Positions 723 through 17,647 of a stretch of 64,000 nucleotides of DNA are shown in pieces. The notes beneath the pieces are model-generated. The model made no database searches. It was not told the origin of the DNA and saw nothing but the letters and a program-made list of their open reading frames with translations. This stretch comes from Rhizobiales bacterium Y(2018). GTDB lineage: Bacteria; Pseudomonadota; Alphaproteobacteria; Rhizobiales; Aestuariivirgaceae. The stretch covers positions 186,001-250,000 of the forward strand of contig SCPD01000005.1 in the NCBI GenBank assembly GCA_005502925.1, given 5' to 3'. The number at the start of each line of letters is the position of its first letter. Within the stretch, counting starts at the first letter, position 1. Made by a program: the position numbers and the translations under genes.

Positions 723-737
723 ACAAGGGAATGTGCC

Positions 738-1682: not shown

Positions 1683-3716
1683 CTAATCCCGCCCCTGCCG
1701 GAACTGCGCGTTGAGCGCGTCGATGGCAAGGCGCAGCCGCGACATGTCGGGCTCGTCGTCATTCTCGATATAAGGCGGCGGCTCGGGCATCCGGGCCTTG
1801 GGCGCCTCGCGTGGCGCCGGCGGCGGAACCTCGCGGGCCTCATCCGGCTCGGCGTCCTCGGTTTCGATCTTCTCCGCCTCGGCGGCGGGCGCGGATTGGC
1901 TTTCGACGGCCGGCGCTTCCGCCACCGTTCCGTCCTCGGCCGGCCAGGGAATGTCGAGCGAGGCCCTGCCGAACAGGTTACCCTGCAGATAGTCCGCGCC
2001 CCATTGGCGCAGGAATTCGGCGTCCTCCGGCGTCTCGACCCATTCGGCGACCGTTGTGATCTCGAACTGCTTCGCCATGTCGATGAGGGAACGGACGAAA
2101 TACTGGTTGTCCGGATTTTCCGTCAGATTGGCGCAGAATGACCCGTCGAGCTTCAGGATGTCGACATTGAGCGCCTTGAGGTTGCGGAACGAGGTATAGC
2201 CGGCGCCGAAATCGTCGATGGCGACGCGGCAGCCGAGATCGCGCAAGGTGCGCGTGAAGCGCACCGTCTCGTCGAGATCGCCGAGCGCCACCGTTTCGGT
2301 GATCTCGACGGTGAGCCTCGGCGTCACCTCGCGATGGGCTTTCAGGATGTCGGTCAACTGGCTGAACCAGCGCGGATCGGTGGCGGTTATCCCTGAGACA
2401 TTGAAGGTGAGATTGGCTTGCGGATAAGTGAGCAATGTCGAGACGGTGAGCTGCGCCACCGTGCGGTCGATGAGACGGACGAGGCCGAGCTTTTCGGCGA
2501 TCGGGATCAGATGCGCCGCCGCGATCATGTCGCCGCGCGCATCCGCCATGCGCAGCAGCGCCTCATGCATCACCACCTTCGTGCTGGCAGCCTCGACGAT
2601 CGGCTGGAAGGCGAGCTTGAAGCGGTCTTCCTTGAGGCAGGCGACGATCTCATGGGCGGCGCGCGCATTGATGCTGCGTTCGGAAATGAGCTTCTGCGAC
2701 GGCTTGTAGACGACGAAGCCGTCGGAGGGCATGCGCTTGGCTTCGGTCAGCGCTTCCTCGGCGCGCGCCATCGCTGTATTGGCGTCGGCCGCATGACCCG
2801 GCAGGATGATGGCGCCGATCGATAGCATGGCCCAGACCGGACCATGCTCGGTCTCGATGACGCTGTCGCGCGCCACCTGCAGGAAACGCTCGGCCGCGTG
2901 GCCGAGCTCGCGCTCGTCGCAATTATTGAGGATGATGGCGAATTTGCTGCCCGAATAACGCGCGATCGGGTCGCCGGCGCGCACCACGTTCTTGAGCCGG
3001 CGCCCCACCGCGATGATGACTTCGTCCGCCACCTCGAAGCCATAGGCGTCGTTGACGACGGCGAGATTGTTGATGCCGGCGATGACGAAGGCGCGGGAAA
3101 CACCTTCGCGATCCGCCGCGATGATCCCTTCCTCCAGCGCTTCCGCCATGCGGCCGCGATTCATCATGCCGGTGAGCGGGTCGCAATTGCCGAGGAAGTT
3201 CAGATGCTGGTCGCGCGAATGACGGTCGTCGATGCGCCGGACGATGCCGAAGGCTTCCGCCGGCCGCCCGTCGGCGCCCGCATACCAGCGTCCGGTGTCT
3301 TCGAGCCAATACGACGTCTTGCCGTTCTTTCCATCGGGCCGGAACAGATATTCGATCTGATAGGGGATGCCCTCGCCCTCGTCCTTGTAGACAGTGCGCA
3401 TCACCGCGTCATAGCGGGTGGTGAAGTTGTCGACGTCGAGGAGGGCCGCGAAGGAGCGCCCGGTGGTGAGCCGGGGCGCCGGGCAATGCAGGATCTCCGG
3501 CGCATTGGCGCTCCAGAAGATCTCGTCCGATTCGATGACCCAGTGATAGGCCGCCTCGCCGACCGCCAGCACCGCCTTGCGCACCCGCTCCAGCTCTTCG
3601 GCGCTGATGACGCGGGCAAGCGATTCGACCGGGCCCTGGCTGCGCTCGGCGAAGCTGCGTTCATCCGCTTTCTTGTGCGGCTCTGCAGCGGACGGTCTGG
3701 GTGATGATTCGCTCAA
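1683..3716 (-). CDS. PAS-like / degenerate GGDEF / EAL protein (c-di-GMP signalling)
   Basis: Composite cyclic-di-GMP protein of 677 residues without membrane segments: a PAS-like sensor (about 50-165), a GGDEF domain (about 175-340), an EAL phosphodiesterase domain (about 355-590) and a Pro/Glu-rich tail. The GGDEF signature is degenerate (SGSKF at 255-259), so diguanylate cyclase activity is unlikely. The EAL domain keeps EALLR (385-389), the Asn of FNVSG, ITET, DDFGAG (501-506), LKLDG and AEWVE (E558), so the metal and catalytic residues look intact. I infer a phosphodiesterase that may use the dead GGDEF as a nucleotide sensor. It is transcribed alone, convergent with the copper genes. 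Confidence 0.85.
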   Translation of the reverse strand: MSESSPRPSAAEPHKKADERSFAERSQGPVESLARVISAEELERVRKAVLAVGEAAYHWVIESDEIFWSANAPEILHCPAPRLTTGRSFAALLDVDNFTTRYDAVMRTVYKDEGEGIPYQIEYLFRPDGKNGKTSYWLEDTGRWYAGADGRPAEAFGIVRRIDDRHSRDQHLNFLGNCDPLTGMMNRGRMAEALEEGIIAADREGVSRAFVIAGINNLAVVNDAYGFEVADEVIIAVGRRLKNVVRAGDPIARYSGSKFAIILNNCDERELGHAAERFLQVARDSVIETEHGPVWAMLSIGAIILPGHAADANTAMARAEEALTEAKRMPSDGFVVYKPSQKLISERSINARAAHEIVACLKEDRFKLAFQPIVEAASTKVVMHEALLRMADARGDMIAAAHLIPIAEKLGLVRLIDRTVAQLTVSTLLTYPQANLTFNVSGITATDPRWFSQLTDILKAHREVTPRLTVEITETVALGDLDETVRFTRTLRDLGCRVAIDDFGAGYTSFRNLKALNVDILKLDGSFCANLTENPDNQYFVRSLIDMAKQFEITTVAEWVETPEDAEFLRQWGADYLQGNLFGRASLDIPWPAEDGTVAEAPAVESQSAPAAEAEKIETEDAEPDEAREVPPPAPREAPKARMPEPPPYIENDDEPDMSRLRLAIDALNAQFRQGRD

Positions 3717-3843
3717 GCAGCCTCCGGGTGAGACTTAAACATACTCTGAGGCCGGCAAAATGCCAGCCATCCTTACGCTGCCAAACTAACGGCCAATTGG
3801 TAAACAACTGAAAAATATGATGGTTGCGTCAGGATCGAAACGG

Positions 3844-5430
3844 CTAATACCCCAAGGCGAGGCCATCTTTGCGGAAGTCGGACCCGCCGGCGAGCACGCC
3901 CTGCGCACGATCGAAAAGTATGGCCTGCCCGCCGCCGAATGGATCGGCTGCCGCGACGACATCGTGGCCGAGCGCCGCCAGTCCTTTATGCACGGCCTCA
4001 TCCACGCCGGCTTCGACCTCGACGCGGCCTTCTTCAGGGAAAGCCCGCGCGAAATCGAGCGCTTCCTGCACGTCGAGCCCATAGACATAGCGGTTGAGCA
4101 TGACGCCGACATGGCCCATCGGCTGGAAGGCGCCGCCCATGACGCCGAAGGACATGTCGACCTGGCCGCCCGCGCGCACCATCGCCGGTATGATCGTGTG
4201 CAGCGGCCTTTTGCCGGGCCCGATGCAATTGGGATGGCCGATTTCGGTGACGAAATTGGCGCCGCGATTCTGCAGCGCGATACCGCTCTTGCGTGTCACG
4301 ATGCCGGAGCCGAAAGCCCAGTAGATCGAGTTGATGAAGGAGACGGCCATACCGTTGCGGTCGACGACGGTGAGATAGACCGTGTCGGAGCCCGGCATCG
4401 GGATCTTGTTCTCCGGATTGACGACGGCGCGCTTCATGTCGATCAGCGCCGCGAGATCCGCCGCGGTTTTGTCACTCAAAAGCTCCTCGGGCGAAACCGT
4501 CATGAAGGAGCGCTCGGCGATATGGCGGTTGCGCAGCACCCAGGCGAGTTTCATCGCCTCGATCTGCAGATGGTAGCGCTCGAGGCTCCTCACGCCATAC
4601 TTCGCCATATCGAACTGCTTGAGGATATTGAGGGCGATGAGCGCGGTGAGGCCCGATCCGTTGGGCGGAATCTCCAAAAGCTCGACACCGGCGAAGTTGG
4701 TCGAGATCGGCTCGACCCAGTCCGCTGTGGTCTCCGCGAGATCCTCAAGCGTCAGAAGGCCGCCACGCGCTTTCAGGGTCGCAACGATTTCCTCTGCGAC
4801 CTCGCCGGCATAGAATCCATCGCGGCCTTTCGCGGCAATGAGCTTGAGTGTGCGCGCCAGAGCCGGATAACGCATTACTTCGCCTTGGCGCGGCGCCCGT
4901 CCGTCGACGAGATAATGGCGGCGTGCGCCTTCGTCCGCCGCGAGATCGGCCACCTCCTGCGCCCAGTCGGAGGCGACGCGCGGTGTGGTCGGCACGCCCT
5001 CCTCGGCGAGCTTGATCGCCGGCTTCAGCGCTTCCTTCAGATCCATCGTGCCGTGCCGCGCGAGGAGTGCCGCCCACGCATCGATGGCGCCAGGCACCGT
5101 CACCGCATGCACGCTTCGGGGCTCGATGCTCGCGAGTCGCGCTGATTTGAGCCAGTCCGCATCGGCGCGCCGGCCGGCGCGGCCCGAACCATTGATGCCC
5201 TCTATCGTGCCATCACTCTTTCCGATCAGCGCGAAGCAGTCGCCGCCGATGCCGGTCATATGCGGTTCGGTGATGCAGAGAACCGCCGAGGCGGCGATCG
5301 CGGCATCGGCCGCATTGCCGCCATTTCTCAATATTTCCAAGGCGAAAAGCGTCGCGAGGGGTGATGATGTTGCGGCCATGCCTTGCGTGCCATAAGCGAC
5401 GGAGCGGCCGGGGATTTGAAAGTTGCGCAT
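3844..5430 (-). CDS. ggt: Gamma-glutamyltransferase family protein
   Basis: Ntn-hydrolase of 528 residues that self-cleaves into two chains and hydrolyses or transfers gamma-glutamyl groups from glutathione-like substrates. The autoprocessing and nucleophile threonine is expected at T350 in GSDTVYLTVVDRNG, and the downstream SFINSIYWAFGSGIV stretch matches the family. Early motifs AANAADAAIAAS-like (NGGNAADAAIAAS) and ITEPHMTGIGGDCF are also present. Unlike classical periplasmic GGT, the N-terminus (MRNFQIPGRSVAYGTQG) has no signal peptide, which places it with cytoplasmic YwrD-type homologues. It is divergent from fhs, with a 168-bp gap. Substrate could be glutathione or another gamma-glutamyl compound. 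Confidence 0.88.
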   Translation of the reverse strand: MRNFQIPGRSVAYGTQGMAATSSPLATLFALEILRNGGNAADAAIAASAVLCITEPHMTGIGGDCFALIGKSDGTIEGINGSGRAGRRADADWLKSARLASIEPRSVHAVTVPGAIDAWAALLARHGTMDLKEALKPAIKLAEEGVPTTPRVASDWAQEVADLAADEGARRHYLVDGRAPRQGEVMRYPALARTLKLIAAKGRDGFYAGEVAEEIVATLKARGGLLTLEDLAETTADWVEPISTNFAGVELLEIPPNGSGLTALIALNILKQFDMAKYGVRSLERYHLQIEAMKLAWVLRNRHIAERSFMTVSPEELLSDKTAADLAALIDMKRAVVNPENKIPMPGSDTVYLTVVDRNGMAVSFINSIYWAFGSGIVTRKSGIALQNRGANFVTEIGHPNCIGPGKRPLHTIIPAMVRAGGQVDMSFGVMGGAFQPMGHVGVMLNRYVYGLDVQEALDFARAFPEEGRVEVEAGVDEAVHKGLAALGHDVVAAADPFGGGQAILFDRAQGVLAGGSDFRKDGLALGY

Positions 5431-5598
5431 GGTTTCCGTTTAGCGTGGGACCGCGCCCTGATCTACTCCCCCTCGGTAGTAGGCGGCCAGAGTGTCGCAA
5501 TCCGCTTAAGGATGCCGTTTCGCGCTCGCCTTGCCAAAATGGCGTAGCTATTGTTCGCTCCTCTTTCGCATATTGCAGAGTGGGAGGAAGTCACCATC

Positions 5599-7278
5599 AT
5601 GGCCACCGTCAAGAGCGACATCGAGATCGCCCGGGAAGCGAAAATGAAGCCGATCCTCGAGATCGGCAAGAAACTCGGTATTCCCGCCGAAGACCTGATC
5701 CCCTATGGCCACACCAAGGCCAAGCTGTCCCTCGACTTCATCTCCGGCCTCTCCAAGAAGAAGGACGGCAAGCTCATCCTCGTCACCGCCATCAATCCGA
5801 CGCCCGCCGGCGAAGGCAAGACGACGACGACGGTGGGCCTGGGCGACGGCCTCAACCGCATCGGTAAAAAGGCGATGATCTGCCTGCGCGAGCCCTCGCT
5901 CGGCCCCTGCTTCGGCATGAAGGGCGGTGCGGCCGGCGGCGGTTATGCCCAGATCGTGCCGATGGAAGACATCAATCTCCATTTCACCGGCGACTTCCAC
6001 GCCATCACGTCGGCGCACAACCTGCTGTCGGCGATGATCGACAATCACATCTATTGGGGCAACGAGCTCGGCCTCGACACGCGCCGCATTTCCTGGCGCC
6101 GCGTGATGGACATGAACGACCGCGCTCTGCGCGATGTCGTCTGCTCGCTGGGCGGTGTCGCCAACGGCTTCCCGCGCGAGGCGGGCTTCGACATCACCGT
6201 CGCGTCAGAGATCATGGCGATCCTCTGCCTCGCGACGTCGATCGAGGATCTCGAGCGCCGCATCGGCCAGATCGTCATCGGCCATAAGCGCGACAAGGGC
6301 CAGGTGCTCGCCAAGGACATCAAGGCCGCAGGCGCCATGACGGTGCTGCTGAAAGACGCGCTGCTGCCCAATCTGGTGCAGACGCTGGAGAACAACCCGG
6401 CCTTCGTGCATGGCGGCCCCTTCGCCAATATCGCGCATGGCTGCAACTCGGCGATGGCGACCAAGGCCGGACTCAAGCTCGCCGATTATGTCGTCACCGA
6501 AGCGGGCTTCGGCGCCGATCTCGGCGCCGAGAAATTCTTCGACATCAAATGCCGCAAGGCCGGCCTGCATCCGGATGTGACAGTGATCGTCGCCACGGTG
6601 CGCGCGCTCAAGATGCATGGCGGCGTCGGCAAGGACGATCTCAAGAAAGAGAATGTCGAGGCGGTGAAAAAGGGTCTCGCCAATCTCGGCCGTCATATCG
6701 AGAATGTGAAGAAGTTCGGCGTGCCGATCGCGGTGGCGGTCAATCACTTCGTCACCGACACCGATGCTGAGGTGAAGGCGATCACCGATTTCTGCCACGA
6801 GCACGGTGTCGAGGGCTTCAAATGCACGCATTGGGCCGATGGCGGCAAGGGCACCGAGGCGCTGGCGAAACATGTGGCGGCACTCGCCGACAAGGGCTCG
6901 AGCCAGTTCCATCCGATCTATGACGATGCGATGCCTTTGTGGGACAAGGTCAAGACCATCGCGCGTGAGATCTATCGCGCCGACGACATCGTCGCCGACA
7001 AGTCGGTGCGCGACCAGTTCAAAGCCTATGAGGCGCAAGGCTACGGCAAATTCCCGATCTGCATGGCCAAGACGCAATATTCCTTCTCGACCGATCCCAA
7101 TCTCAAAGGCGCGCCGACCAACCATGTCGTGCCGATCCGCGAGGTGAGATTATCGGCAGGTGCCGAATTCATCGTCGTCATCTGCGGTGACATCATGACC
7201 ATGCCGGGCCTGCCCAAGGTGCCGTCGGCCGAGACGATCGGCCTCGACGCCAAGGGCCAGATCGCCGGGCTGTTCTAG
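5599..7278 (+). CDS. fhs: Formate--tetrahydrofolate ligase
   Basis: ATP-dependent ligase of 559 residues that makes 10-formyl-tetrahydrofolate from formate and THF, feeding one-carbon metabolism. The ATP-binding loop is [15 protein letters not shown] near residue 70, followed by the conserved [19 protein letters not shown] and later NCxHGCNS-like [10 protein letters not shown] motifs. Length is typical. The start at 5599 follows GGGAGGAAG at the right distance; an upstream in-frame ATG at 5551 precedes no ribosome site. A strong hairpin follows the stop. It sits divergent from ggt and appears monocistronic. Confidence 0.95.
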
Positions 7279-7292
7279 CCCGTCAAGTGCAA

Positions 7293-7317
7293 ACGGCCCC
7301 GGTTTCGCCGGGGCCGT
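7293..7317 (+). terminator. Hairpin terminator after fhs
   Basis: Perfect 10-bp GC-rich stem (ACGGCCCCGG / CCGGGGCCGT) with loop TTTCG, 15 bases after the fhs stop and before the convergent outer-membrane protein gene. The T-tract is poor, so it may work in both directions or be Rho-assisted. Confidence 0.6.
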
Positions 7318-7348
7318 CTACTGATGTTCCGCCAAACGGATGCCCCTG

Positions 7349-8200
7349 TTAGCTGGGGTTAAAAGTGCTTGTTGAAGTCGAGGTTGAGGTCGAGGTTCCA
7401 GTGCTCGTGCCGTCAGCCGAGGAATTCTTGTCGTTCTTGACTTTGAAACCGACGAAAGTCTTGGTGCGGTTCGGCGGATCGTCCTCGCGGTGACGGCGGA
7501 TCAGGCTCTTGTCGTCGCTGCCGAAGTAGAAGCTGAGGCCGCCGGTGATGCCGACATAATCATTCTCGCCGATCTTCGCGCCGAAAGAGGCGGTCATCGC
7601 GTCGGCGAACTGATATTCGAGGCCGGCCCGCAGGAATTCCTGGTCGGCGAGGATGTTGCCGCCGACATACAGTCTGAGATCATCGGTCGCGTAGTAGGAT
7701 GCATCGACGTCGATAAAGCCGTCGCCGCCCCCGCCGGCATCGTCGTCAGCGTCGATATCGACATAGCCGCCCCAGGCTTGCAGGGTGAACTGGCCGAAAT
7801 AGAGTTCAGCCTCGGGGCCGACGGCCCAGAGATTGGCGTCACCCGCGTCGAAGTATCCGCCGGTCACACCAAACAGATACGAGTCGGGATCGCGGGTGAA
7901 CAGATGCACGGCGCCGCCATAGGTCGTGACGTCGAGCTCGTCGATGACGCCGACATCGGCCTGGAAGCCGAAATCGCAACCGAGCGGAATGCTGAGTGAG
8001 CCCAGCCCGCTGATCAGCGCGTTGCCGCTCTCGTCGTCATTCTCGGAATAACCGCCGATGGCTTCGATCTTGCCGTTGACCCCTGAAACCGCGCACAGCG
8101 GCTCGTTGACGACATCGGCAGCCAGCGCGACAGGCGCCGGTACGATCCAGGTGAGCGCCAGCGCCGAACTCGCACTCATCAGAGACGTTTTAAACGACAT
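7349..8200 (-). CDS. Predicted outer-membrane protein with a C-terminal Ser/Thr repeat tail
   Basis: Secreted protein of 283 residues. The start at 8200 gives a clean signal peptide (MSFKTSLMSASSALALTWIV..ALAAD) preceded by GAGGGA. The mature part is rich in alternating hydrophobic/polar strands and aromatic turns (GAVHLFTRDPDSYLFGVTGGYF, LRLYVGGNILADQ, AMTASFGAKIGENDYVGITGGLSFYFG), suggesting a beta-barrel or porin-like fold. It then continues past the barrel into a lysine-rich linker and an unusual tail ending TSTGTSTSTSTSTSTFNPS, coded by near-repeats of ACCTCG/ACCTCA. The tail could be an O-glycan or phosphate acceptor for the fusion enzyme encoded upstream on the same strand. No exact family was recognised. 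Confidence 0.65.
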   Translation of the reverse strand: MSFKTSLMSASSALALTWIVPAPVALAADVVNEPLCAVSGVNGKIEAIGGYSENDDESGNALISGLGSLSIPLGCDFGFQADVGVIDELDVTTYGGAVHLFTRDPDSYLFGVTGGYFDAGDANLWAVGPEAELYFGQFTLQAWGGYVDIDADDDAGGGGDGFIDVDASYYATDDLRLYVGGNILADQEFLRAGLEYQFADAMTASFGAKIGENDYVGITGGLSFYFGSDDKSLIRRHREDDPPNRTKTFVGFKVKNDKNSSADGTSTGTSTSTSTSTSTFNPS

Positions 8201-8320
8201 AGTTTTTCCCTCGACAGCCAAAGACTGGGCCCGACCCGCTTCGATATTACGCAAAGTGATGGCAGTTTCCAGTGGCTATCGCACCGGAATACGAGCCGGC
8301 GCAAGAAAACCTGCGCAATG

Positions 8321-8389
8321 TTGTAATTGGGCCACAGTGACATCTTGCTCATAGTGCTGGAGCAAATCAAATATTCCCTGCAATTACAA
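8321..8389. repeat. Nested symmetric inverted repeat upstream of the outer-membrane protein gene
   Basis: TTGTAATTG (8321-8329) pairs with CAATTACAA (8381-8389), and inside it TTGCTC (8345-8350) pairs with GAGCAA (8360-8365). The two inner gaps are both exactly 15 bases, so both palindromes share one centre at 8355. It lies in the 225-bp gap between the fusion gene stop and the outer-membrane protein start. It could be a double operator, a leader RNA hairpin or the fusion gene's terminator. Confidence 0.5.
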
Positions 8390-8425
8390 ATGGATAACAA
8401 GTTTCTTACGAAAGTACCGGCGATC

Positions 8426-11400
8426 TTACGGAGAGGATCCGGCCGGGCTCAAAGCCAGGCATTTATCAGCCAGCTTCAGATATACAGGATCCGGCATCAC
8501 CACGAAATTCTCCAGGGCGGCAACGAACAGCTCGCGATAGATGGCCGACTTTTCCTCCTCCGACAGCAGAAAGACTGACAAATGATCTAGCTCGGGCCGG
8601 GCCCAGCCAAGGGTAGGATCAGGCTCGCCGCGGCGACGCAGGAACGCCACTTGCTTGGCAATGTGTGCTCCGAGCGCCTGGTCAAACCTCTTTCGCCTGG
8701 AAAGGCTCTCCCCGTGCAGACGGTAGTCGACCACCATATCAGGCAGATTAGCCAGCTTGAAACATTCATCCATGCGCAGCCAGAAATCCAAATCATTTGC
8801 AACCCCGAGTTGACGCCTCAGTCCGCCGCATGCTTCGAATGCCGCCTTGCGCATCATAGCGGTGGGATTGCCGATCGGGGGCACCGTGGTGTTGCGGAGT
8901 GCGGCGTGGCAGGCTTCGGACGTCAACGGATAGGTGAGCCTGGTCCCGGTGAGCCGGCCGTGAAGGTCTATGCACCGCATCTGACCGCCGATCACGGCAA
9001 TATCCTGGTTTTTCTCCAGAAAGGCGACCTGCAGCGCCAATCTGTCCGGCATCAGCACATCGTCATGATCGGCGCGAGCCAGCAGTTCAAAGCGTGCCTT
9101 GGCGCTGCCCGTGTTGAAGGCTACTGCCTCACCCCCGTTATCCTGATGGATGACCTGAATACGCGTGTCGACCCGGGCGTAGCTGTCGGCAATGGCTCCC
9201 GTCGCATCGCTCGACCCATCATTGACGATGATCAGCTCGAAATTTTCATGGGTCTGCAGCAAAACACTTTCGATCGCCTGCGCGAGATATGCCGCGCCAT
9301 TATAGACGGGAAGAACGACGGACACGCCCGGTGCCGCCGACTTGACCACCGGAGCGGGCGGCTGCCGCGCGCCGGATACCGGCGCCGTCCGGCTGAACAC
9401 GATGAGGTTCTGCCGATAGTGATTGTCGGCGCGCGGATCCTGCTTCAACACTGGGCGCAGGCAATCGACCGGCTTATAGCCACGCCTGGCGAACAGCGCC
9501 GCCCAGGAGGCACGCAGCCGATTGTAGTCGATTGCGCCCTCAGCGGGCGGCCGCGCAAAGACAAAAACGACGACGGGGGCAATACGGGTGAGCTCCGCGA
9601 CATGCTGCTCGGCAAGCGCCAGCGTCGAAACGCCGTCCGTTTCAAAACTGCAAACCAGCTCACAGGATTGGTCGGGCCTATGCCTTTGCCGATCATCCGC
9701 CGAAGCGATGCCATAGTGAGCGAACTCCCCTGCCCAAAGTCCGGCGCGGCGCCCTCGGCATGATACCGAATCGAAAATGAACTTGTCGAGCAAGACCGGC
9801 ACGACGGCCTCGGCCACGAAGCGTAAGCGTGCTTCGTTCAGATCATACGGCTCGTCATCCTCGAAACTGTCCGGTCTCGCAGGCGGTGTATCATTCGCCG
9901 CTTCCGCCGCCAGCTCTTTCCTGATGGCCGCGAAGATATTGTCAGCCTTGCGCCGGCCCAGGAGCTCACGAAAATGATCCTGCATCTGTGAGGTATCCCA
10001 GCCGATTTCCCCAAAACCGATGAGATAGTTACGGATCCGGTCGTCCCATTTGTTGGGGTAGGGTATTCCCATCGGCCGGCCAAAACGATGCACCCAACGC
10101 AATGACGGCAGGCACAAAGTGCGACCGCCCCCTTGGCGGAATCTCTCATGCACATAGCCCTCCTCGCCGCCAAACCCGCGGAAGGCCGGATTGAATCCGC
10201 GCCAGGCTTCGCGGCGGCAGGCAAAGACGCCTAGACCCTGGAAGAGAATGTCGAAAGGTGGTCCGTCGATATCCTCACCGGCAGGATCATGGTCCCATTT
10301 ACCAAACATGCCGTTCCACCAATCTTCCGACCAATGCGTGCTGATGCGGGCGAGATCATCGTAGACCAGGGGTCCCTGGATCAGGTCAATGCTGGACGGC
10401 ACACTGCGGAAATAGTCGATGAGTTTTCTGAGGCTGCCCGGCGCAAACAGAACATGGCAATCCATGGACAGGACGAATTCGCCGTCCGCTTCGCTGATGA
10501 CGCGGTACTTCATGGCCGTTCCCGTCATGTCGCCGGCGGGAATGTAACGCAGGTTGGGAACGTGCCTTTCGAGGTCCTTCAGCGCTGCGGCACATGGACC
10601 ATCTGGGTGATTGTCGATGATGACAAACTCTACTTCGTCGAGAATCTCCGGATGGTAGAGGCGGATCGCCTGCAAGCTGAAATAGACGCCGTCATAATCG
10701 TCATAGGTCGCCATCCCGATGGTCATGAAGGGCGAGAACATTCGTGTGCTGCGTTCCGGAATGGGATATTTGCGCGCCGACGCGGGTTCCGGCTGCGCGA
10801 TGTTCGAAACGAAATGGTCGAACGCTTTGGGCGATAATTTTTCGTCGATCACGAGCTTGACGAGGCGATCGAGCAGACCCTCGAGCTCCTTGTGGCGGGA
10901 ATAGGTGACGGCAATGGCCGGAATGGTCCGCGCCATCTCGATATACCAGTAGTCGGCGCCGCCAGCGGTTGCGGCCGGTGATACCAATTGCTCCTTGATG
11001 AGGCGTGCCGCGTCGAAGGCATCGAGCTTGTCGAGACGCGGTTCCGCATGGGGATCATGGCGGGGAAAGATCAGCATCCGGCAAGGATGCGGTTCATTAG
11101 CCGCACGCCAGGACTCCTTGACGCCGACATGGATGCGATCGCCAGTCCGCGCCATCGGCGCGGTGCTGAATTCGCTCAGCGCAACGAGATGATCGGCGGC
11201 ATCGGCAGTGAAAGTGAAGGGCGCCGGATAGCCGGCAAGCGCCCCTGTGGCATCGACGACGGCGACCCGGTCGTCGCCGATGAGGGCGAAACCTTTCTCG
11301 ACGAACCACGCGGCGAGCGACGATTTGCCGGAACGCTCGGGGCCTGCGATGAGGACGGCGCCGTCACCCCAGCTCACCGCGGCGGCGCGCAGCACCGGAA

Positions 11401-11665
11401 CGCCGGCCCTCTCCGTCAGGCGGTCCGCGACCGAGGCGAGCAGGCGATTGAGCAAGGCACCACGTTTCAATCCGCCTTCACGCGGAGCGCCATGGCCTTG
11501 CAAGGAGTAGCTGCGATCGGCCTCCTCGCCGACGATGATCCGCTCATCGATCCCGGCGACCGGCGCTTCGCTCTTCAGGCTGGTGAGAAGCCCATCGCCG
11601 AGCAGGTGATCGGGCAGCTCAATGGCGACGGTATGGTGTCCCAACCGGACGACGACTTCATTCAT
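8426..11665 (-). CDS. Four-module fusion: HprK-like P-loop / GalNAc-T-like GT / degenerate methyltransferase / GT2
   Basis: Cytoplasmic-looking protein of 1079 residues in four parts. (1) Residues 1-290 resemble the HPr kinase/PEPCK fold, with P-loop GPERSGKSS (108-116) and IGDDRVAV (129-136). (2) Residues 310-560 are a glycosyltransferase with DCH at 402-404 (a DxH motif) and GGEEGYVHERFRQGGG (499-514) followed by LP..RWVHRFGR, a pattern that recalls polypeptide GalNAc-transferases. (3) Residues 610-760 resemble a SAM methyltransferase whose Gly-rich loop is degraded. (4) Residues 780-1060 are a GT2 domain with VSVVLPVYNG and ADHDD (865-869). It lies 73 bases after a LysR gene and 225 bases before the outer-membrane protein gene. 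A role in glycosylating a protein or surface glycan is inferred. Confidence 0.75.
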   Translation of the reverse strand: MNEVVVRLGHHTVAIELPDHLLGDGLLTSLKSEAPVAGIDERIIVGEEADRSYSLQGHGAPREGGLKRGALLNRLLASVADRLTERAGVPVLRAAAVSWGDGAVLIAGPERSGKSSLAAWFVEKGFALIGDDRVAVVDATGALAGYPAPFTFTADAADHLVALSEFSTAPMARTGDRIHVGVKESWRAANEPHPCRMLIFPRHDPHAEPRLDKLDAFDAARLIKEQLVSPAATAGGADYWYIEMARTIPAIAVTYSRHKELEGLLDRLVKLVIDEKLSPKAFDHFVSNIAQPEPASARKYPIPERSTRMFSPFMTIGMATYDDYDGVYFSLQAIRLYHPEILDEVEFVIIDNHPDGPCAAALKDLERHVPNLRYIPAGDMTGTAMKYRVISEADGEFVLSMDCHVLFAPGSLRKLIDYFRSVPSSIDLIQGPLVYDDLARISTHWSEDWWNGMFGKWDHDPAGEDIDGPPFDILFQGLGVFACRREAWRGFNPAFRGFGGEEGYVHERFRQGGGRTLCLPSLRWVHRFGRPMGIPYPNKWDDRIRNYLIGFGEIGWDTSQMQDHFRELLGRRKADNIFAAIRKELAAEAANDTPPARPDSFEDDEPYDLNEARLRFVAEAVVPVLLDKFIFDSVSCRGRRAGLWAGEFAHYGIASADDRQRHRPDQSCELVCSFETDGVSTLALAEQHVAELTRIAPVVVFVFARPPAEGAIDYNRLRASWAALFARRGYKPVDCLRPVLKQDPRADNHYRQNLIVFSRTAPVSGARQPPAPVVKSAAPGVSVVLPVYNGAAYLAQAIESVLLQTHENFELIIVNDGSSDATGAIADSYARVDTRIQVIHQDNGGEAVAFNTGSAKARFELLARADHDDVLMPDRLALQVAFLEKNQDIAVIGGQMRCIDLHGRLTGTRLTYPLTSEACHAALRNTTVPPIGNPTAMMRKAAFEACGGLRRQLGVANDLDFWLRMDECFKLANLPDMVVDYRLHGESLSRRKRFDQALGAHIAKQVAFLRRRGEPDPTLGWARPELDHLSVFLLSEEEKSAIYRELFVAALENFVVMPDPVYLKLADKCLALSPAGSSP

Positions 11666-11738
11666 CTACACATTTGCCCTTCACCTGCCCGGGCCGGATG
11701 CTATGGCATGACGCCGCGCCCGTCGAGGGGAAGCCATT

Positions 11739-12635
11739 TTACAGCGCACCTTCATACGCCAGCGCCGCGGCGATGCATTCGATGAGCATGCGCACACGGC
11801 GCGGCTGCACGCGGCTGGGCGGGAAGACGATCTGCAGGGCAGTGCTGCCGGCGGCGTATTCCTTGAGCAGCTCGACCAGTGCGCCCGTTGCGAGATCCTC
11901 GTCGATGTCCCGGATCGATTTCAGCGCGACGCCGCGGCCTTGCTTGCACCATTGCCGAACGAGCCCGCCGTCATTGGCGATGCGCCGGCCTTGGACCGAG
12001 ACCCGCTCCAGGCGGCCAGCGATGAGGAATGGCCAGCGGCGGTCGATATTCTGGCCGAAGCGCATGAGGATGCAGTCATGCTGCGCGAGGTCGTGGGGAT
12101 GAGCCGGCGCGCCATGCCTGGCCAGATAGCCGGGCGCCGCGCAGACGATGCGCCGGTTTTCACCTAGGGGTATCGAGCGCAGGCTGCTGTCGGCGAGCAC
12201 GCCATGCCTGATTCCGAAATCCAGGCCCTGGCCGACGAGATCGACATAGCCATCTGTCAGGTTGAGATCGACCGTCACGGCGGGGTGCTCGGCGAGGAAG
12301 GCGTCGATGACCGGCACGATGCGGCGGCGGCCGAGATCTTCGGGCGCGCTGAGGCGGATCGGGCCTGATATCCGTTCGGCACCGTGCTTGACCAGGCTGT
12401 CCAGGTCCTCCGCCTCGGCCAGCAGCCGGCGCGCGCCCTCGACCAGAAGCCGCCCTTCGTCGGTGAGACTGATCGCGCGTGTGGTTCGCTTCAGAAGCGT
12501 CACACCATAACGACGCTCCAGCGCCATCAGGCGTTCCGAGACGGTGGCCGGCGACAGCCCGATTTCCCGCCCGGCGGCGGCGAGCCCGCCTTTTTCGACA
12601 ATACGCAGGAAAAGCGCGAGATTATCGAGAAGCAT
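11739..12635 (-). CDS. LysR-family transcriptional regulator
   Basis: Regulator of 298 residues. The N-terminal winged helix (MLLDNLALFLRIVEKGGLAAAGREIGLSPATVSERLMALERRYG, first 20 shown in part) is followed by a periplasmic-binding-like effector domain. It belongs to the common AaeR/CrgA-like branch (ALERRYGVTLLKRTTRAISLTDEG). It is divergent from an NADPH-dependent oxidoreductase gene across a 91-bp gap containing a perfect palindrome, so it most likely controls that gene and itself. The effector cannot be read from sequence. Confidence 0.88.
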   Translation of the reverse strand: MLLDNLALFLRIVEKGGLAAAGREIGLSPATVSERLMALERRYGVTLLKRTTRAISLTDEGRLLVEGARRLLAEAEDLDSLVKHGAERISGPIRLSAPEDLGRRRIVPVIDAFLAEHPAVTVDLNLTDGYVDLVGQGLDFGIRHGVLADSSLRSIPLGENRRIVCAAPGYLARHGAPAHPHDLAQHDCILMRFGQNIDRRWPFLIAGRLERVSVQGRRIANDGGLVRQWCKQGRGVALKSIRDIDEDLATGALVELLKEYAAGSTALQIVFPPSRVQPRRVRMLIECIAAALAYEGAL

Positions 12636-12645
12636 TCTTCGTATT

Positions 12646-12666
12646 TTCCGAATTATGATTTCGGAA
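12646..12666. promoter_or_regulatory. Putative LysR operator
   Basis: Perfect 7-bp inverted repeat TTCCGAA-N7-TTCGGAA in the AT-rich gap between the divergent LysR and oxidoreductase genes. Size and placement suit a LysR-type binding site of the T-N11-A class. The assignment rests on position and symmetry only. Confidence 0.5.
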
Positions 12667-12726
12667 TTTAGCGAATTTTACAGCCTGATCGCAATATCTA
12701 TAAAGTCGCCGCATCAGGAGAGTCAC

Positions 12727-13737
12727 ATGAAAGCCGTGGGTTTCACCCGTTATCTGCCGATCACCGATCCCGCCTCCCTGCTCGACATCGAATTGCCGAA
12801 GCCGGAGGCAACGGGCCATGACATTCTGGTCGCGGTGAAGGCGGTCGCGGTCAATCCGGTCGACACCAAGGTGCGCGCGCCCAAGGACAAGGTGGAGGCG
12901 AGCCCGCGGGTGATCGGTTATGACGCCGCCGGCATCGTCGCCGCCATCGGCGCGGACGTCACGCTGTTCAAGGTCGGCGACGAAGTCTACTACGCCGGCG
13001 ATATTACCCGCCCGGGCACCAACCAGGAATTCCATCTCGTCGACGAGCGCATCGTCGGACGCAAGCCGAAGTCACTGTCCTTCGCCGAAGCGGCGGCCCT
13101 GCCGCTCACCACCATCACCGCTTACGAATCGTTCTTCGACCGCCTGCGCATCGATCGCAACGGCGCCGACGCCGGCAAATCGATCCTGATCATCGGCGGC
13201 GCCGGCGGCGTGGGTTCGATCGGCATACAGCTCGCCAAGCGCGCCGGCCTCGTCGTCATCGCCACCGCGTCACGGCCGGAGACGATCGCCTGGGTCGAAG
13301 AGCTCGGCGCCGATCATGTCGTGAACCACCGCCAGCCGCTGGCCCAGCAAGTGAAGGCGCTCGGCCACGAGCAGGTCGACTATGTCGCCATCTTCAACGA
13401 CATGCGGCATTGGCCGGACGCCGTCGAGCTGATCCGTCCGCAAGGTGCCATCGTGACGATCGACGACACCCACCATCCGATGCCGATGGATCGGATGAAG
13501 ACCAAGGCGGCGAGCCTGCATTGGGAGCTCATGTTCACGCGCGCCATGTTCAAGACGCCGGACATGATCGAGCAGCATCGCCTGCTTTCCTTCGTGGCCG
13601 ATGAGATCGATGCCGGGCGCCTGCGCAGCACGCTCGCGCACGTGCTTGCGCCGATCAATGCGTTGAATATGCGCGAAGCGCACCGTCTCGTCGAAACCGG
13701 CGCCGCCAAGGGCAAGGTCGTCATCGAAGGATTCTGA
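12727..13737 (+). CDS. Zinc-type alcohol dehydrogenase-like / quinone oxidoreductase (MDR family)
   Basis: NADPH-dependent medium-chain reductase of 336 residues related to quinone reductases (COG0604-type, YogA/ZADH-like). The N-terminal GroES-like domain contains VGYDAAGIV-type residues, and the nucleotide-binding fold shows IIGGAGGVGSIGIQLAKRAG around residue 155. The Cys/His residues of zinc-dependent enzymes are not evident, so it is probably zinc-free despite the common family name. The start follows CAGGAGAG and the signature MKAVGF. Being divergent from a LysR gene suggests induction by a reactive carbonyl or quinone substrate. Confidence 0.85.
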   Translation: MKAVGFTRYLPITDPASLLDIELPKPEATGHDILVAVKAVAVNPVDTKVRAPKDKVEASPRVIGYDAAGIVAAIGADVTLFKVGDEVYYAGDITRPGTNQEFHLVDERIVGRKPKSLSFAEAAALPLTTITAYESFFDRLRIDRNGADAGKSILIIGGAGGVGSIGIQLAKRAGLVVIATASRPETIAWVEELGADHVVNHRQPLAQQVKALGHEQVDYVAIFNDMRHWPDAVELIRPQGAIVTIDDTHHPMPMDRMKTKAASLHWELMFTRAMFKTPDMIEQHRLLSFVADEIDAGRLRSTLAHVLAPINALNMREAHRLVETGAAKGKVVIEGF

Positions 13738-13783
13738 CGCGCCGATGGCTGCCGGCCGAATCGATCAGCCGCGGCGCCAGGTT

Positions 13784-14131
13784 TCAGCGACCGCAGGCGC
13801 GCCGAAATTCGGCTGTTGCACGCGAAACCCCGGAGATCATTTTGCGTGCCTGCCTACGATCGCGCGCCGTTGCCATCGTGCATTTGGGGTTCCGCTGAAT
13901 CCATGAGCTGGCCTTGCGAAGTGACGCGAGCAGAGGCCGACCGGCACGGCACATATCTTTGACCCTGGCGTTCTCAAAACGATAAAGGTTGGTGTTGAGC
14001 TGCTTCATCAGCGGGCTGAATTCGCGCCACTGAGCGGCGGTACATTGGCTGGCTGCCGACGCCGGAGAAAGCGAAGAGGTTGCAAGGATGGCGACTACAA
14101 CCAATGGCGTGAGTCGAAGGCAAAATCTCAT
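13784..14131 (-). CDS. Small secreted four-cysteine protein of unknown function
   Basis: I do not recognise this family. From the start at 14131 the product is 115 residues: a signal peptide (MRFCLRLTPLVVVAILATSS..ASA) and a basic mature part of about 90 residues with four cysteines (SQCTA, DMCRAG, PKCTM, RACGR) that could form two disulfides in the periplasm. An upstream in-frame ATG at 14200 would place residues before the signal peptide and is less likely. Codon use matches neighbours, so it is probably a real gene. It lies alone between the oxidoreductase and a ubiH-like gene. Confidence 0.6.
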   Translation of the reverse strand: MRFCLRLTPLVVVAILATSSLSPASAASQCTAAQWREFSPLMKQLNTNLYRFENARVKDMCRAGRPLLASLRKASSWIQRNPKCTMATARDRRQARKMISGVSRATAEFRRACGR

Positions 14132-14251
14132 GGCATCCCCAGTCGTCAAAAAGTTGCTCAATATCATCGACGATTCCCACAGCGGCGATGCCGAGGTCAA
14201 GACCTAAGGGGGTTCCTCTCGCACGAAAAGTGCCCCAATGTTGCATTTTTA

Positions 14252-14282
14252 CAATGCATCCCGGCTTTCACCAGGATGACGG
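14252..14282 (+). repeat. 31-bp palindromic repeat, copy 1 (degenerate)
   Basis: Starts CAATGCATCCCGGCTTTC and ends GGATGACGG. It matches the repeat at 56915 except for a few changes, one of which breaks the stem (CACCAGG instead of CGCCGGG). It lies downstream of the ubiH-like gene in an intergenic gap, as the other copies do. Confidence 0.6.
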
Positions 14283-14289
14283 GCTAAAG

Positions 14290-15525
14290 CTAGACAGCCT
14301 CGCCCTGCAACAGCTTGGGCAAACGTCCCGTCTCACCCGCCGCTTCGCGCATGAAGAAGCCCTTGAGCGCGTCGAGGCTGCCGGCGACGCGCAGGCCCAT
14401 GCCGCGAATGGCCCGGAGCGCGGAGTTGTCGTTGGAGAACAGCCGCGTCAGGCCGTCGGTCGCCATCGCCGTCATCGCCGTGTCGAAACGGCGCCAGCGC
14501 GCATAGGTTTCGAGCACCGCATCCGAGCCGGGATCGAGCCCGAGCTTCACCGCTTCGGCGACGCTTTCGGCGAGCGCCGCCACATCGCGCAGGCCCAGAT
14601 TGAAGCCTAAGCCCGCGATAGGATGGATGACATGCGCCGCATCGCCGATGAGCGCCAGCCTTTCGCCGGTGAAGGACTGGGCGATCTGCATCGACAACGG
14701 ATAGGCATGGCGGGGACCGGCGATGCTGATCTCGCCGAGATGGCCGCCGAAGCGGCGCGACAATTCGGCAAGGAAGCCGGCGTCATCGAGCTCCATGATG
14801 CGCTGCGCCTCGGCGCTGCGCTCGGTCCAGACCAGCGAGCTGCGGTTCTGCGGCAAGGGCAGGATGGCGAAGGGGCCTGAGGGCAGGAAGTGCTCCTCGG
14901 CGCGGCCATGATGCGGCCGCTCATGCGCGACGGTGGTGACGATGCCGGTCTGGTCGTAAGCCCAGCCATAGGTCGCGATCCCGGCCGCCTTGCGGGCGGG
15001 CGACGCGCGACCATCGGCGGCGACGAGCAGTGACGCCCTGGCCCCTTCGCCCGTCTCCGTCGTGACGCGGGCAAGACCCGGTCCGAATGTGTAGGATGCG
15101 ATGCGCGTGCCGGTCTTGAGCCGCACATGGGGCGATGCGAGCGCCGCATCGAGCAGCGCGCCATAGAGATGGCGATTCTCGACCATGAAGGCGGAAGCCG
15201 CCCCGCCATGATCCTCTTCGCCGAAATGCAGCAGCGCCGGACGGGTCTCGGCGCCGAGCTTGGCGTCGGTGACGATGATGTCGCGCATCGGCTCGGCATG
15301 GGGCGCGATCGTCTCCCATACGCCGAGCGCCTCGAGCATGCGCCGCGACGAGGCGGTGATGGCCGAGGCGCGGCCGTCGAATGTGTCGCGCGCGAATTTG
15401 GTCGGATCGGCCTGGTCGAGAATCAGGATGTCGAGCGGCGTGCGCGCTTTGGGGCCCGCCAGAGCCACGGCGGCCGCGAGCCCGTTGAGGGCGGCGCCGG
15501 CGATGAGGATATCCGCTTTGTCCAT
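14290..15525 (-). CDS. UbiH/UbiF-family FAD-dependent hydroxylase (probable ubiquinone biosynthesis)
   Basis: Flavin monooxygenase of 411 residues. It has an N-terminal FAD-binding Rossmann segment (ILIAGAALNGLAAAVALAG), a central ADGRASPAR (DG motif) and the hallmark GDAAHVIHPIAGLGFNLGLRD near residue 290. These mark the UbiH/UbiF/Coq6 family, which hydroxylates the ubiquinone ring. Alphaproteobacteria often use broader-specificity members (UbiL/UbiM type), so which ring position is modified is not readable. It is divergent from glnK across 219 bases. Length and motifs are intact. Confidence 0.88.
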   Translation of the reverse strand: MDKADILIAGAALNGLAAAVALAGPKARTPLDILILDQADPTKFARDTFDGRASAITASSRRMLEALGVWETIAPHAEPMRDIIVTDAKLGAETRPALLHFGEEDHGGAASAFMVENRHLYGALLDAALASPHVRLKTGTRIASYTFGPGLARVTTETGEGARASLLVAADGRASPARKAAGIATYGWAYDQTGIVTTVAHERPHHGRAEEHFLPSGPFAILPLPQNRSSLVWTERSAEAQRIMELDDAGFLAELSRRFGGHLGEISIAGPRHAYPLSMQIAQSFTGERLALIGDAAHVIHPIAGLGFNLGLRDVAALAESVAEAVKLGLDPGSDAVLETYARWRRFDTAMTAMATDGLTRLFSNDNSALRAIRGMGLRVAGSLDALKGFFMREAAGETGRLPKLLQGEAV

Positions 15526-15692
15526 GCCGACCAGAAGCCACCGCGGGGCCGGATCGTCAAGCCATCGATCTCTGCTTAATTTTTAGCCTTACATGAGATT
15601 TTGCACGATAATTCATCATCATCCATCGGCTGACTCCCGGTCATCCCGTAAAATATATAGCATTATCAATTGGATACCTGATCTCCGGAATC

Positions 15693-15708
15693 TGGCATGG
15701 AACTTGTT
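15693..15708 (+). promoter_or_regulatory. Sigma-54 (-24/-12) promoter of glnK-amtB
   Basis: TGGCATGGAACTTGTT matches TGGCACGN4TTGCW with two changes and exact spacing (GG at 15694, TG at 15706). It lies 36 bases before the glnK start. Nitrogen-limitation control by RpoN/NtrC is known for this operon in related bacteria. Confidence 0.75.
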
Positions 15709-15744
15709 TTGTCTGCTGCGCCGCAACATCAGGGAGATGGGCGC

Positions 15745-16083
15745 ATGAAGTACATAATTGCCGTCGTCAAACCACATAAGCTCGACGAGGTCCGCGAGGC
15801 CTTGGCCTCGATCGGCATACAGGGAATTACCGTCACCGAAGTCAAAGGCCATGGCCGCCAGGGCGGCCATACCGAGTTCTATCGCGGCGCCGAATATGCC
15901 GTGACCTTCGTTCCCAAAGTGAAGATCGAGATCGCCGTCGATAAGGCGCTCAGCGCCCGCGTCGTCGAGACCATCCGCAAGGCCGGTGAAACCGGCCAGA
16001 TCGGTGACGGCAAGATCTTCGTGCTCCCGCTCGAGGAAGCGGTGCGCATCCGGACCGGCGAGGTCGGCACCGATGCGCTGTGA
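15745..16083 (+). CDS. glnK: Nitrogen regulatory protein P-II (GlnK)
   Basis: PII signal protein of 112 residues that senses 2-oxoglutarate and ATP/ADP and, in its unmodified form, blocks the ammonium channel. The T-loop is intact, with the uridylylation target Y51 (RGAEY). The C-terminal B/C-loop signature TGQIGDGKIFVLPLEEAVRIRTGE is clear (shown in part: GDGKIFVLPLEE). The start at 15745 follows AGGGAGA; upstream in-frame codons lie within the promoter. It is 22 bases ahead of amtB, the usual glnK-amtB operon, behind a sigma-54-type promoter. Confidence 0.95.
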   Translation: MKYIIAVVKPHKLDEVREALASIGIQGITVTEVKGHGRQGGHTEFYRGAEYAVTFVPKVKIEIAVDKALSARVVETIRKAGETGQIGDGKIFVLPLEEAVRIRTGEVGTDAL

Positions 16084-16105
16084 GGCTCAAGGGGAGGATT
16101 TTCAT

Positions 16106-17647
16106 ATGAAGGATACTGCAATGACATTTCGTGCGTTCACACGGCGCAGGCTTTTGCCCGGCGCTTTGGGCCTGGCCTTGGCCGGCCTCCTGCCCATGGG
16201 CTCAGCGTTTGCCGCGGCAACCGTCAACAAGGGCGACACGACCTGGATGCTGATCGCCACCATTCTGGTGATCCTGATGACCATACCGGGCCTCGCCCTC
16301 TTCTATGGCGGCCTGGTGCGCACCAAGAATGTGCTGTCGGTCCTGACCCAGGTCTTCATCTGCTTCTCGCTCATCGGCATTCTCTGGGTGCTCTACGGCT
16401 ATTCGATCGCCTTCACCGGCGGCACCGCCTTCTTCGGCGGCTTGTCGAAATTCTTTCTCGCCGGCGTCGACGTCTCGACGCTCGCCGCCACCTTCTCCAA
16501 GGAAGTCTATGTGCCGGAGCTCTCCTATGTGATGTTCCAGCTGACTTTCGCGGCGATCACCCCTGCCCTCATCGTCGGCGCCTTCGCCGAGCGCATGAAG
16601 TTTTCGGCGGTGCTCTTGTTCCTCGTTCTGTGGTTCACCTTCGCCTATCTGCCGATGGCGCATATGGTGTGGTTCTGGGCCGGCCCCGACGCCTACACGC
16701 TTTCGGCCGACAATCTCGATGCGGTGAAAGCCGCGGTGGGTGAGCAGGCGGCGACCGATTTCCTCGCCAAGCTCGCGGCCGCGACGGATGATGCGGCCAA
16801 GGCCACGGTCCTCGCCGACTACGGCAATGCGGTCAACGCCTCCAATGGCTGGCTCTTCAACTGGGGCGCGCTCGATTTCGCCGGCGGCACCGTCGTCCAC
16901 ATCAATGCCGGCGTCGCCGGTCTCGTCTGCGCTCTCGTGCTCGGCAAGCGCGTCGGCTACGGCAAGGACGCGATGGCGCCGCACAGCCTCACCTTGACCT
17001 TGATCGGCGCTTCGCTGCTCTGGGTCGGCTGGTATGGCTTCAATGCCGGCTCCAATCTCGAGGCCAACGGTCTGACCGCGCTGGTCGTCCTCAACACGAC
17101 CATCGCCACCGGCGCCGCGGCGCTGGCCTGGACCTTCGGTGAATGGGTGACGCGCGGCCATCCGAGCTTGCTCGGCGCCGCGTCGGGCGCGGTGGCGGGT
17201 CTCGTCGCCATCACGCCGGCCTGCGGCTGGGTAGGGCCGGCGGCGGCCATCCTCATCGGCCTCATCGCCGGTCTCGTCTGCCTGTGGGCCGTCGTCTGGA
17301 TGAAGGCGAAGTTCGGCTATGATGATTCGCTCGATGTCTTCGGCGTCCATGGCGTCGGCGGCATTGTCGGCGCACTCCTCACCGGCATCTTCGTCAATCC
17401 GGCGCTGGGCGGCTCGGGCGTCACCGACTATCTGAGCCCCGACACCTCCACCAAACTCCTCGACTACGCTTTCGGCACCCAGATGACGGCGCAGATCGTG
17501 GCCGTGCTGACCGCCGTGGTGGTGTCCGGAGTGGTGAGTTATCTGGCGCTTCTGATCTGCAAGGCGGTCACCGGCCTCAGGGTCTCGGAAGCCGAGGAGC
17601 GCGAAGGCCTCGACATCGCGTCGCATGGTGAGCGCGCCTATAACTGA
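16106..17647 (+). CDS. amtB: Ammonium transporter AmtB
   Basis: Ammonium channel of 513 residues, with an N-terminal signal sequence (containing FTRRRLLPG) and about 11 membrane helices. Family signatures include DFAGGTVVHINAG (with one of the pore histidine-region residues), LFYGGLVRTKN and FGVHGVGGIVGALLTGIF. The start at 16106 follows GGGGAGGA. It is co-transcribed with glnK, whose product gates it. A T-rich hairpin terminator follows. The N-terminal cleaved signal is usual for Amt proteins of proteobacteria. Confidence 0.95.
   Translation: MKDTAMTFRAFTRRRLLPGALGLALAGLLPMGSAFAAATVNKGDTTWMLIATILVILMTIPGLALFYGGLVRTKNVLSVLTQVFICFSLIGILWVLYGYSIAFTGGTAFFGGLSKFFLAGVDVSTLAATFSKEVYVPELSYVMFQLTFAAITPALIVGAFAERMKFSAVLLFLVLWFTFAYLPMAHMVWFWAGPDAYTLSADNLDAVKAAVGEQAATDFLAKLAAATDDAAKATVLADYGNAVNASNGWLFNWGALDFAGGTVVHINAGVAGLVCALVLGKRVGYGKDAMAPHSLTLTLIGASLLWVGWYGFNAGSNLEANGLTALVVLNTTIATGAAALAWTFGEWVTRGHPSLLGAASGAVAGLVAITPACGWVGPAAAILIGLIAGLVCLWAVVWMKAKFGYDDSLDVFGVHGVGGIVGALLTGIFVNPALGGSGVTDYLSPDTSTKLLDYAFGTQMTAQIVAVLTAVVVSGVVSYLALLICKAVTGLRVSEAEEREGLDIASHGERAYN

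Follow-up and report, generated by a model that had tools for sequence, protein, structure and literature searches.

Bacterial surface adhesins are modified by dedicated glycosyltransferases (GTs), for example the BAHT autotransporter heptosyltransferases (TibC/AAH) and HMW1C. In these systems the genes for enzyme and acceptor are linked and glycosylation takes place in the cytoplasm. The enzymes have GT folds other than the one described here and act on the passenger parts of autotransporters or adhesins, not on the C-terminal tail of a barrel. The polypeptide GalNAc-transferases of family GT27 bind their metal with a DxH motif and a later His (PMC6994419 and PMC4202792). DxH replaces the DxD motif in GT27 and GT60, both of which carry out Ser/Thr O-glycosylation of polypeptides, according to a survey of GT-A enzymes (PMC7185993). 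Here we describe a pair of adjacent genes from Rhizobiales bacterium Y(2018), located in a window of 64,000 nucleotides (contig SCPD01000005.1, positions 186,001 to 250,000). One codes for a four-module fusion protein, the other for an outer-membrane protein (OMP). We consider it likely that they form a two-gene cassette in which a phage-type GT27-like polypeptide O-glycosyltransferase modifies the Thr/Ser tail of the neighbouring OMP.

Two observations go beyond the initial annotation of this DNA: in phages, the enzyme family often occurs together with mucin-like proteins, and in bacteria it is accompanied by a Thr/Ser-tailed OMP. Among open-licence papers, the top-ranked matches of result sets that were in part very large contained no description of GT27-like enzymes from phages or bacteria together with Thr/Ser-rich partners. 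The features of the two genes are:

8426-11665, minus strand: four-module fusion gene (P0001), 1079 aa, with full-length orthologues in three of four other genomes of the genus
10796-11665, minus strand: HprK-like module, residues 1-290, probably a degenerate kinase (TIGR04352 and PF07475 below cut-offs; R93)
11318-11344, minus strand: P-loop GPERSGKSS, residues 108-116 (GxxxxGKSS in four of four genus members, lost in genome G056)
9896-10768, minus strand: GT27-like (polypeptide GalNAc-transferase-like) domain of a phage-type family, residues 300-590, by fold, alignment and tree
10454-10462, minus strand: DxH metal motif D402-C403-H404, aligned to DSH of GalNAc-T10
10076-10171, minus strand: GGEE...H526RFGR segment, residues 499-530, with the presumed third metal ligand His526, aligned to GalNAc-T10
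9356-9868, minus strand: degenerate SAM-methyltransferase-like segment, residues 600-770
8426-9343, minus strand: ordinary C-terminal GT2 domain, residues 775-1079
7349-8254, minus strand: OMP-like gene adjoining the fusion, proposed acceptor (signal peptide and beta-barrel by eye)
7475-7495, minus strand: RHREDDP motif before the OMP tail (invariant in five of five linked members, exact in 11 of 14 unlinked members compared)
7349-7417, minus strand: Thr/Ser-rich C-terminal tail of the OMP, with the proposed glycosylation sites, by composition and Thr pattern

The GT27-like domain

The second module of the fusion protein (domain 2) was modelled with AlphaFold2 from an alignment of 21 rows (predicted local distance difference test, pLDDT, 88.4; predicted template modelling score, pTM, 0.86). 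When the model was compared to the PDB with Foldseek, all 50 matches listed (the best 50 of 363 at E <= 1e-3) were GT27 enzymes. The best match was GalNAc-T10 (1.7e-13), and sequence identity in the matches listed was 14-20%. As a control we used the C-terminal GT2 domain of the same protein, for which the model is weaker (6 rows, pLDDT 63). None of its 50 matches listed is a GT27 enzyme; they are bacterial and archaeal GT2-type proteins such as chondroitin polymerase, RmlT, WrtF and TarS.

The presumed metal ligands D402, H404 and H526 are invariant in all 21 alignment rows, so that every row has DxH and not the DxD of GT2. H526 belongs to the segment GGEEGYVHERFRQGGG ... LP..RWVHRFGR of domain 2. 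A profile alignment to GalNAc-T10 (2d7i) places the DxH of the family on DSH and the His of W-x-H-R-F on the later His; the metal site is thus assigned by alignment and not from a structure with metal. With GT27 enzymes, domain 2 shares the closest solved fold, the metal motifs, a spacing of GGE-R-GG-P-H similar to that of GalNAc-T10, and apparent Thr/Ser-rich acceptors. It differs in its low sequence identity, in having no visible membrane anchor and in its occurrence in prokaryotes and phages. Another difference is that the family reads GEE at the xED position, compared to GGEQ in GalNAc-T10, so that the enzyme may be either retaining or inverting. Domain 2 has no match to PF11397, which represents GT60-type enzymes. 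The best reading is that domain 2 is a polypeptide Ser/Thr O-glycosyltransferase. The initial annotation had already pointed to a GalNAc-transferase-like domain; a confident assignment to an unrelated family of GTs that has no GT27-like metal site was named there as the finding that would speak against it. The structure comparison gave GT27 instead, and the likeness is borne out by the metal residues.

An ordinary GT2 was tried as an assignment for domain 2 and was ruled out by the fold, even though the domain alone passes the gathering score of PF00535 in Pfam (30.6 vs 23.3 bits).

Two results on domain 2 weaken the case for a polypeptide transferase. By sequence profile alone, the family matches GalNAc-T10 only at 8e-4 over positions 35-218, which ranks below TarP and chondroitin synthase. 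In addition, Pfam detects no lectin domain in the fusion or in six phage members. In an alternative explanation the fusion assembles a polysaccharide or a lipid-linked glycan, with two GTs per chain as in chondroitin and heparosan synthases, while the OMP acts as receptor or exporter. This would fit the PF00535 score and the profile matches of domain 2 to TarP and chondroitin synthase, which cover its N-terminal part, as well as the relationship of the C-terminal GT2 to chondroitin synthase and similar enzymes. It would also fit the GT1-like and CapK-like genes near OMP relatives elsewhere. However, the model of domain 2 resembles GT27 and not the polymerase GT2s, and Thr/Ser-rich partners are found in phages and in bacteria. 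Moreover, no Wzx/Wzy or polysaccharide-export genes were seen by eye in window positions 1-20000 or in 20 kb of the L121 locus. We thus regard glycan assembly as unlikely. The initial annotation had proposed an enzyme that modifies Ser/Thr on a protein or builds a surface glycan, with kinase control. The first part of this proposal is well supported, the surface glycan is retained as the unlikely alternative just described, and kinase control was not upheld (see below).

The outer-membrane protein partner

The OMP gene is directly beside the fusion gene in four genomes of the genus (the window genome, G003, G002 and G001). It is one gene away in G056, which belongs to another family of the order. 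In G001, the pair of fusion and OMP genes is found at another chromosomal site. The OMP has no Pfam family (three members searched), and its alignments were started from the Met at 8200.

All five linked OMPs carry a Thr/Ser-rich tail after the RHREDDP motif, whereas the tails of 14 unlinked members, which include paralogues from the same genomes as the linked ones, are mostly rich in Gly, Asp and Pro. The mean Thr fraction of the tail is 0.187 for the linked and 0.062 for the unlinked proteins, and the mean Thr+Ser fraction is 0.31 and 0.12, respectively. A difference as extreme was reached by 1 (Thr) and 2 (Thr+Ser) of 11628 relabellings, figures that overstate independence since a single genus contributes four of the five linked OMPs. 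This counts against our interpretation, as does the overlap of one unlinked tail (G041b, Thr+Ser 0.25) with the linked range of 0.23-0.46. The count left out the matches in which an RHRED[D/N]P-like motif could not be placed, which were most of the distant ones. In the 7.1-Mb genome, the DNA pattern for T-x-T-x-T-x-T-x-T (x being ACN, TCN, AGN or TGN) occurs only at the OMP tail, with two overlapping matches within 7365-7396; the same pattern run backwards as a control gave 13 matches, so that such patterns are not rare as such. Finally, the C-terminal tag of phage partner proteins described below is not present at the end of the bacterial OMP.

In the mechanism that we infer, from the acceptor and the donor sugar to the order of the steps, domain 2 would act in the cytoplasm as a metal-dependent enzyme and place a sugar on Ser/Thr residues of the C-terminal tail of the OMP. 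This would precede export of the OMP, and the fused C-terminal GT2 would then probably extend the sugar. What the computations themselves show is the fold, the conserved metal ligands, the linkage of the genes, the composition of the tails and the presence of the family in phages. The proposal that Ser/Thr residues of a protein are modified is well supported by the predicted GT27 fold, by the metal residues and by the Thr/Ser-rich proteins encoded beside the gene in phages and bacteria.

Relatives of the OMP were also found in other gene contexts. In G000 (C1:181749-183441; locus L185), two tandem OMP paralogues, with tails after RHREDDP that are not Thr/Ser-rich, are followed by a gene for an EryCIII/GT1-like glycosyltransferase (Pfam). 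A similar arrangement exists in G030 (L186, Pfam) and in G002 (L548, by eye). Genes for CapK/PaaK-like adenylate-forming enzymes, recognized by eye, adjoin OMP family members in three loci (L124:10643-11965, L186:649-1962, L545:5118-6464). In Pfam, the L124 gene matches AMP-binding at 0.099, and nothing was found at 0.01 for those of L186 and L545. Because EryCIII-like and CapK-like genes stand beside relatives elsewhere, association with modifying enzymes seems to be a recurrent feature of the OMP family. No gene for a modifying enzyme was seen by eye beside the family member in G023 and G041.

Stand-alone relatives in phages and their Thr/Ser-rich neighbours

Nearly all close relatives of domain 2 that were found are encoded by uncultured phages as stand-alone enzymes. 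A scan of IMG/VR with residues 1-600 gave 95 matching stretches, 94 of which encode relatives; among the 80 relatives listed, similarity is essentially confined to the region of domain 2. An alignment-based scan increased the set to 553 relatives encoded in 575 stretches. In the phages, the GT is encoded by a frame of its own with 254-349 residues between stops, without the kinase module. No PHROG family was found at E <= 0.1 for six phage members or for domain 2 of the window, and tblastn of residues 1-600 gave no match at 1e-5 in the named phages of INPHARED or in plasmid records. The C-terminal GT2 was found in none of 16 stretches of viral contigs.

Bacterial carriers are few. At class level (385 genomes, 1e-3), six genomes matched domain 2: the own genome, and five others with only weak, short pieces resembling GT2. 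At phylum level (398 genomes, 1e-30), only the own genome was found. Among 60 relatives, three genomes of the genus have all modules and G056 has two. Patterns from the whole fusion retrieved only two unrelated GT2s from the genome collection; the set of 84,980 species was not searched with patterns of the family itself and may hold further carriers.

In a tree of 74 phage representatives and five bacterial domains, the bacterial sequences and phage L188 (contig L041) form a clade of six (support 99/93) nested among the phage sequences. Within it, the pairing of L188 and G056 (93/75) is not firm, and the tree is rooted only at its midpoint. The simplest reading of this tree is that the bacterial lineage probably took domain 2 from a phage, the direction of transfer being an inference.

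The phage genes frequently have a Thr/Ser-rich neighbour. We counted genes with a Thr/Ser tract, for which we required 18 or more Thr/Ser in 30 residues. Seven of the 39 dereplicated loci of a first set have such a gene at most two places from the GT. Of the 35 representatives that were fetched in a second scan, after the hypothesis had been formed, 22 were positive. Altogether this applies to 29 of the 74 representatives. Tract genes make up 33 of 285 genes at distance 1-2 but only 6 of 803 genes further away (p=1e-14); for the 35 later representatives alone, the numbers are 24 of 137 near and 4 of 486 far genes (p=3e-13). Nearly all of the near genes (31 of 33) lie upstream of the GT and on its strand, 23 of these directly. 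As controls, we found a tract gene no more than two places away for 4 of 48 representatives of the phage PF11397 (GT60-type) GTs, and for none of 37 representatives of a nuclease, 33 of which hold the GT themselves.

Many of the neighbouring proteins end in a common C-terminal tag, C-x(0-6)-C-x(2-3)-L-x-[FY]. It occurs in 30 of 1088 genes of the GT loci and in none of 1190 genes of control loci; as the tag was defined from the loci counted, only the 1190 control genes are independent. Tag genes sit one or two places upstream of the GT in 27 of 30 cases, and all those counted have at least 12 Thr/Ser in 30 residues. In many of the tag-bearing loci examined (L203, L219, L259 and similar ones), the two genes following the GT (+1, +2) are on the opposite strand, small and conserved (~76 and ~171 aa). 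One of each was searched, and neither has a Pfam match. The ~171-aa protein has Cys residues in its C-terminal part and a marginal PHROG match (0.009).

In L188/L041, the phage closest to the bacterial enzymes, the major head protein gene and the GT flank a gene whose product has a Thr/Ser tail at its end. PHROG 427, a family of unknown function, covers residues 1-136 of the 158 residues of this protein, and the tail lies beyond the profile. In the GC-rich loci L041-L043 the open reading frame caller took the wrong strand; the tail was found by eye, is below the threshold and is outside the 29 of 74.

We also searched in the reverse direction. At least 120 stretches have a pattern that would code for TSTSTSTST, and 52 of them have a gene with TSTSTSTS in frame. 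A strong member of the GT family is present in three of these 52 loci, in two of them within two genes, and a further locus adjoins a weak GT2 (1e-8). Therefore, Thr/Ser tracts are not exclusive to the GT27-like family.

The phage data contain two points that weaken the proposed pairing. The first is that 50 of the 52 TS-repeat loci lack the GT within two genes, although two flanking genes on either side are available in only 23 of the 52. The second is that 22 of the 74 representatives have the GT immediately behind the nuclease gene in a replication-type module and lack a Thr/Ser gene up to two places away, so some members of the family may do something else.

On balance, we lean towards mucin-type protein O-glycosylation being a phage invention. 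A large GT27-like family would modify dedicated mucin-like Thr/Ser proteins, many of them with the C...CxxLx[FY] tag as a possible docking site for the enzyme. In one bacterial lineage, a captured enzyme of this family would have been joined to an HprK-like module and a second GT and redirected to an OMP tail. If this is true, the fold and metal chemistry of the animal enzymes that initiate mucin glycosylation exist in phages and in a bacterium, and a phage-type protein-modifying enzyme has been incorporated into a bacterial surface system. The enzymes would be compact and lectin-free and would come with paired acceptors, and the Thr/Ser tracts could be usable in glyco-engineering. Roles such as shielding, adhesion or receptor masking would become testable for Thr-rich phage proteins and OMP tails. 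In mycobacteriophage virions, subunits of the capsid and the tail tube are reported to carry glycans at their C-termini (Freeman et al. 2023, as cited in PMC12619734). The likeness is in the C-terminal position of the glycans; the passages of PMC12619734 on this work do not mention mucin-like acceptors.

The location of many GT genes raises the alternative that the family modifies DNA or nucleotides. In large phage contigs (L105, L072 and others), the order is DnaB-like, primase-like, deoxynucleoside monophosphate (dNMP) kinase, PD-(D/E)XK nuclease, GT27-like GT, DnaE-like and exonuclease-like, with names given partly by eye. The neighbouring kinase gene in L105 has a DNMK match (2e-13), and the GT is directly downstream in 33 of the 37 nuclease representatives. 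Against this stand the GT27-like fold, the Thr/Ser genes near the GT in 29 of 74 representatives and the OMP gene beside the bacterial copies. Furthermore, 7 of 17 long records with a replication module have an in-frame Thr/Ser gene elsewhere, compared to pattern matches in none of 16 GT60 (PF11397) records in which the GT27-like GT was not found (p=0.005); these records were hand-picked, mostly by length, and are not a random sample (18 and 16, with L076 then excluded because it has no nuclease and its tract is beside the GT). The tracts of G449 and G451 were initially doubtful and proved to be in frame on checking. The backward control pattern also matched G451, G459, G460, G465 and G467, so a lone DNA match is no proof of a tract. 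Those distant Thr/Ser genes of replication-module phages that were examined lack the C-terminal tag. Taken together, we consider DNA or nucleotide modification very improbable and retain protein O-glycosylation as the preferred function.

A phage PF11397 gene, which resembles GT60-type polypeptide GlcNAc-transferases, lies three genes from a GT27-like gene in L056 (8680-9981), a locus that also codes for two Thr/Pro-rich proteins. The phage PF11397 family is itself large, with a relative encoded in 211 of 212 stretches.

The fusion protein and its other modules

All four modules of the initial annotation are present in one frame of 1079 codons. The frame is on the minus strand; the plus-strand reading at the same coordinates has stops. 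Three of the four other genomes of the genus contain open frames of 1076-1104 aa that can be aligned end to end (61-70% identity), and the fourth, G004, is a draft that is 87% complete. G056 has a two-module form of 605 aa, consisting of the HprK-like module and domain 2. Because of these full-length orthologues and the two-module relative, we consider the fusion genuine and a chimera unlikely. An assembly chimera, which the initial annotation had named as a way to be proven wrong, was rejected on account of the end-to-end orthologues in the three further genomes, on evidence from orthologues and not from reads. The N-terminal pair of HprK-like module and GT may be the older unit.

PadeK and PsmK are HprK-related kinases. 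They phosphorylate a lasso-peptide precursor with a Ser tail, and in pseudomycoidin a sugar is added (PMC9266682). The same paper describes a His-Lys-Asp-Asp set for lasso-peptide kinases. In the fusion, TIGR04352 (HprK-related kinase A) matches residues 91-260 at 3.7e-10, with 39.4 bits compared to a curated cut-off of 200 bits, which was exceeded in none of 25 genomes. The PF07475 match is also below its cut-off (8.4e-5; 22.6 vs 33.3 bits). A kinase-primed mechanism could be envisaged, in which the HprK-like module phosphorylates Ser/Thr residues of the tail and the GT adds a sugar to the phosphorylated residue, as by PsmK and then PsmN for pseudomycoidin (PMC9266682). It would agree with TIGR04352 matches to this region in all five homologues, with a P-loop Lys in four of them and with an Asp pair kept in three.

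However, the position of the catalytic His, as placed by our own alignment, is occupied by Arg in three genus members and by Ser in the fourth. In the window protein it is R93 (by alignment to L034), while K114, D131 and D132 are present. One Asp is replaced by Asn in G001. In G056, the Walker A P-loop that is intact in all four genus members is lost, yet this genome has the GT and a Thr/Ser-rich OMP tail. The phage GTs have no kinase module at all. A separate HprK-related protein in G002 has His at the catalytic position. The replaced His, the Asp lost in G001 and the P-loop lost in G056 make it more likely that the module is degenerate, perhaps a remnant that binds the acceptor, than that it is an active kinase. 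For the same reasons kinase control is not supported, and we give kinase priming little credence.

The methyltransferase-like segment lacks the Gly-rich loop of motif I. Two separate proteins (L183, L184) that are related to residues 668-771 keep this loop as DIGCG. In the fusion the segment is probably a structural part. The C-terminal GT2, which contains DHDD, matches PF00535 over residues 782-945 (7.6e-41) and may extend the first sugar.

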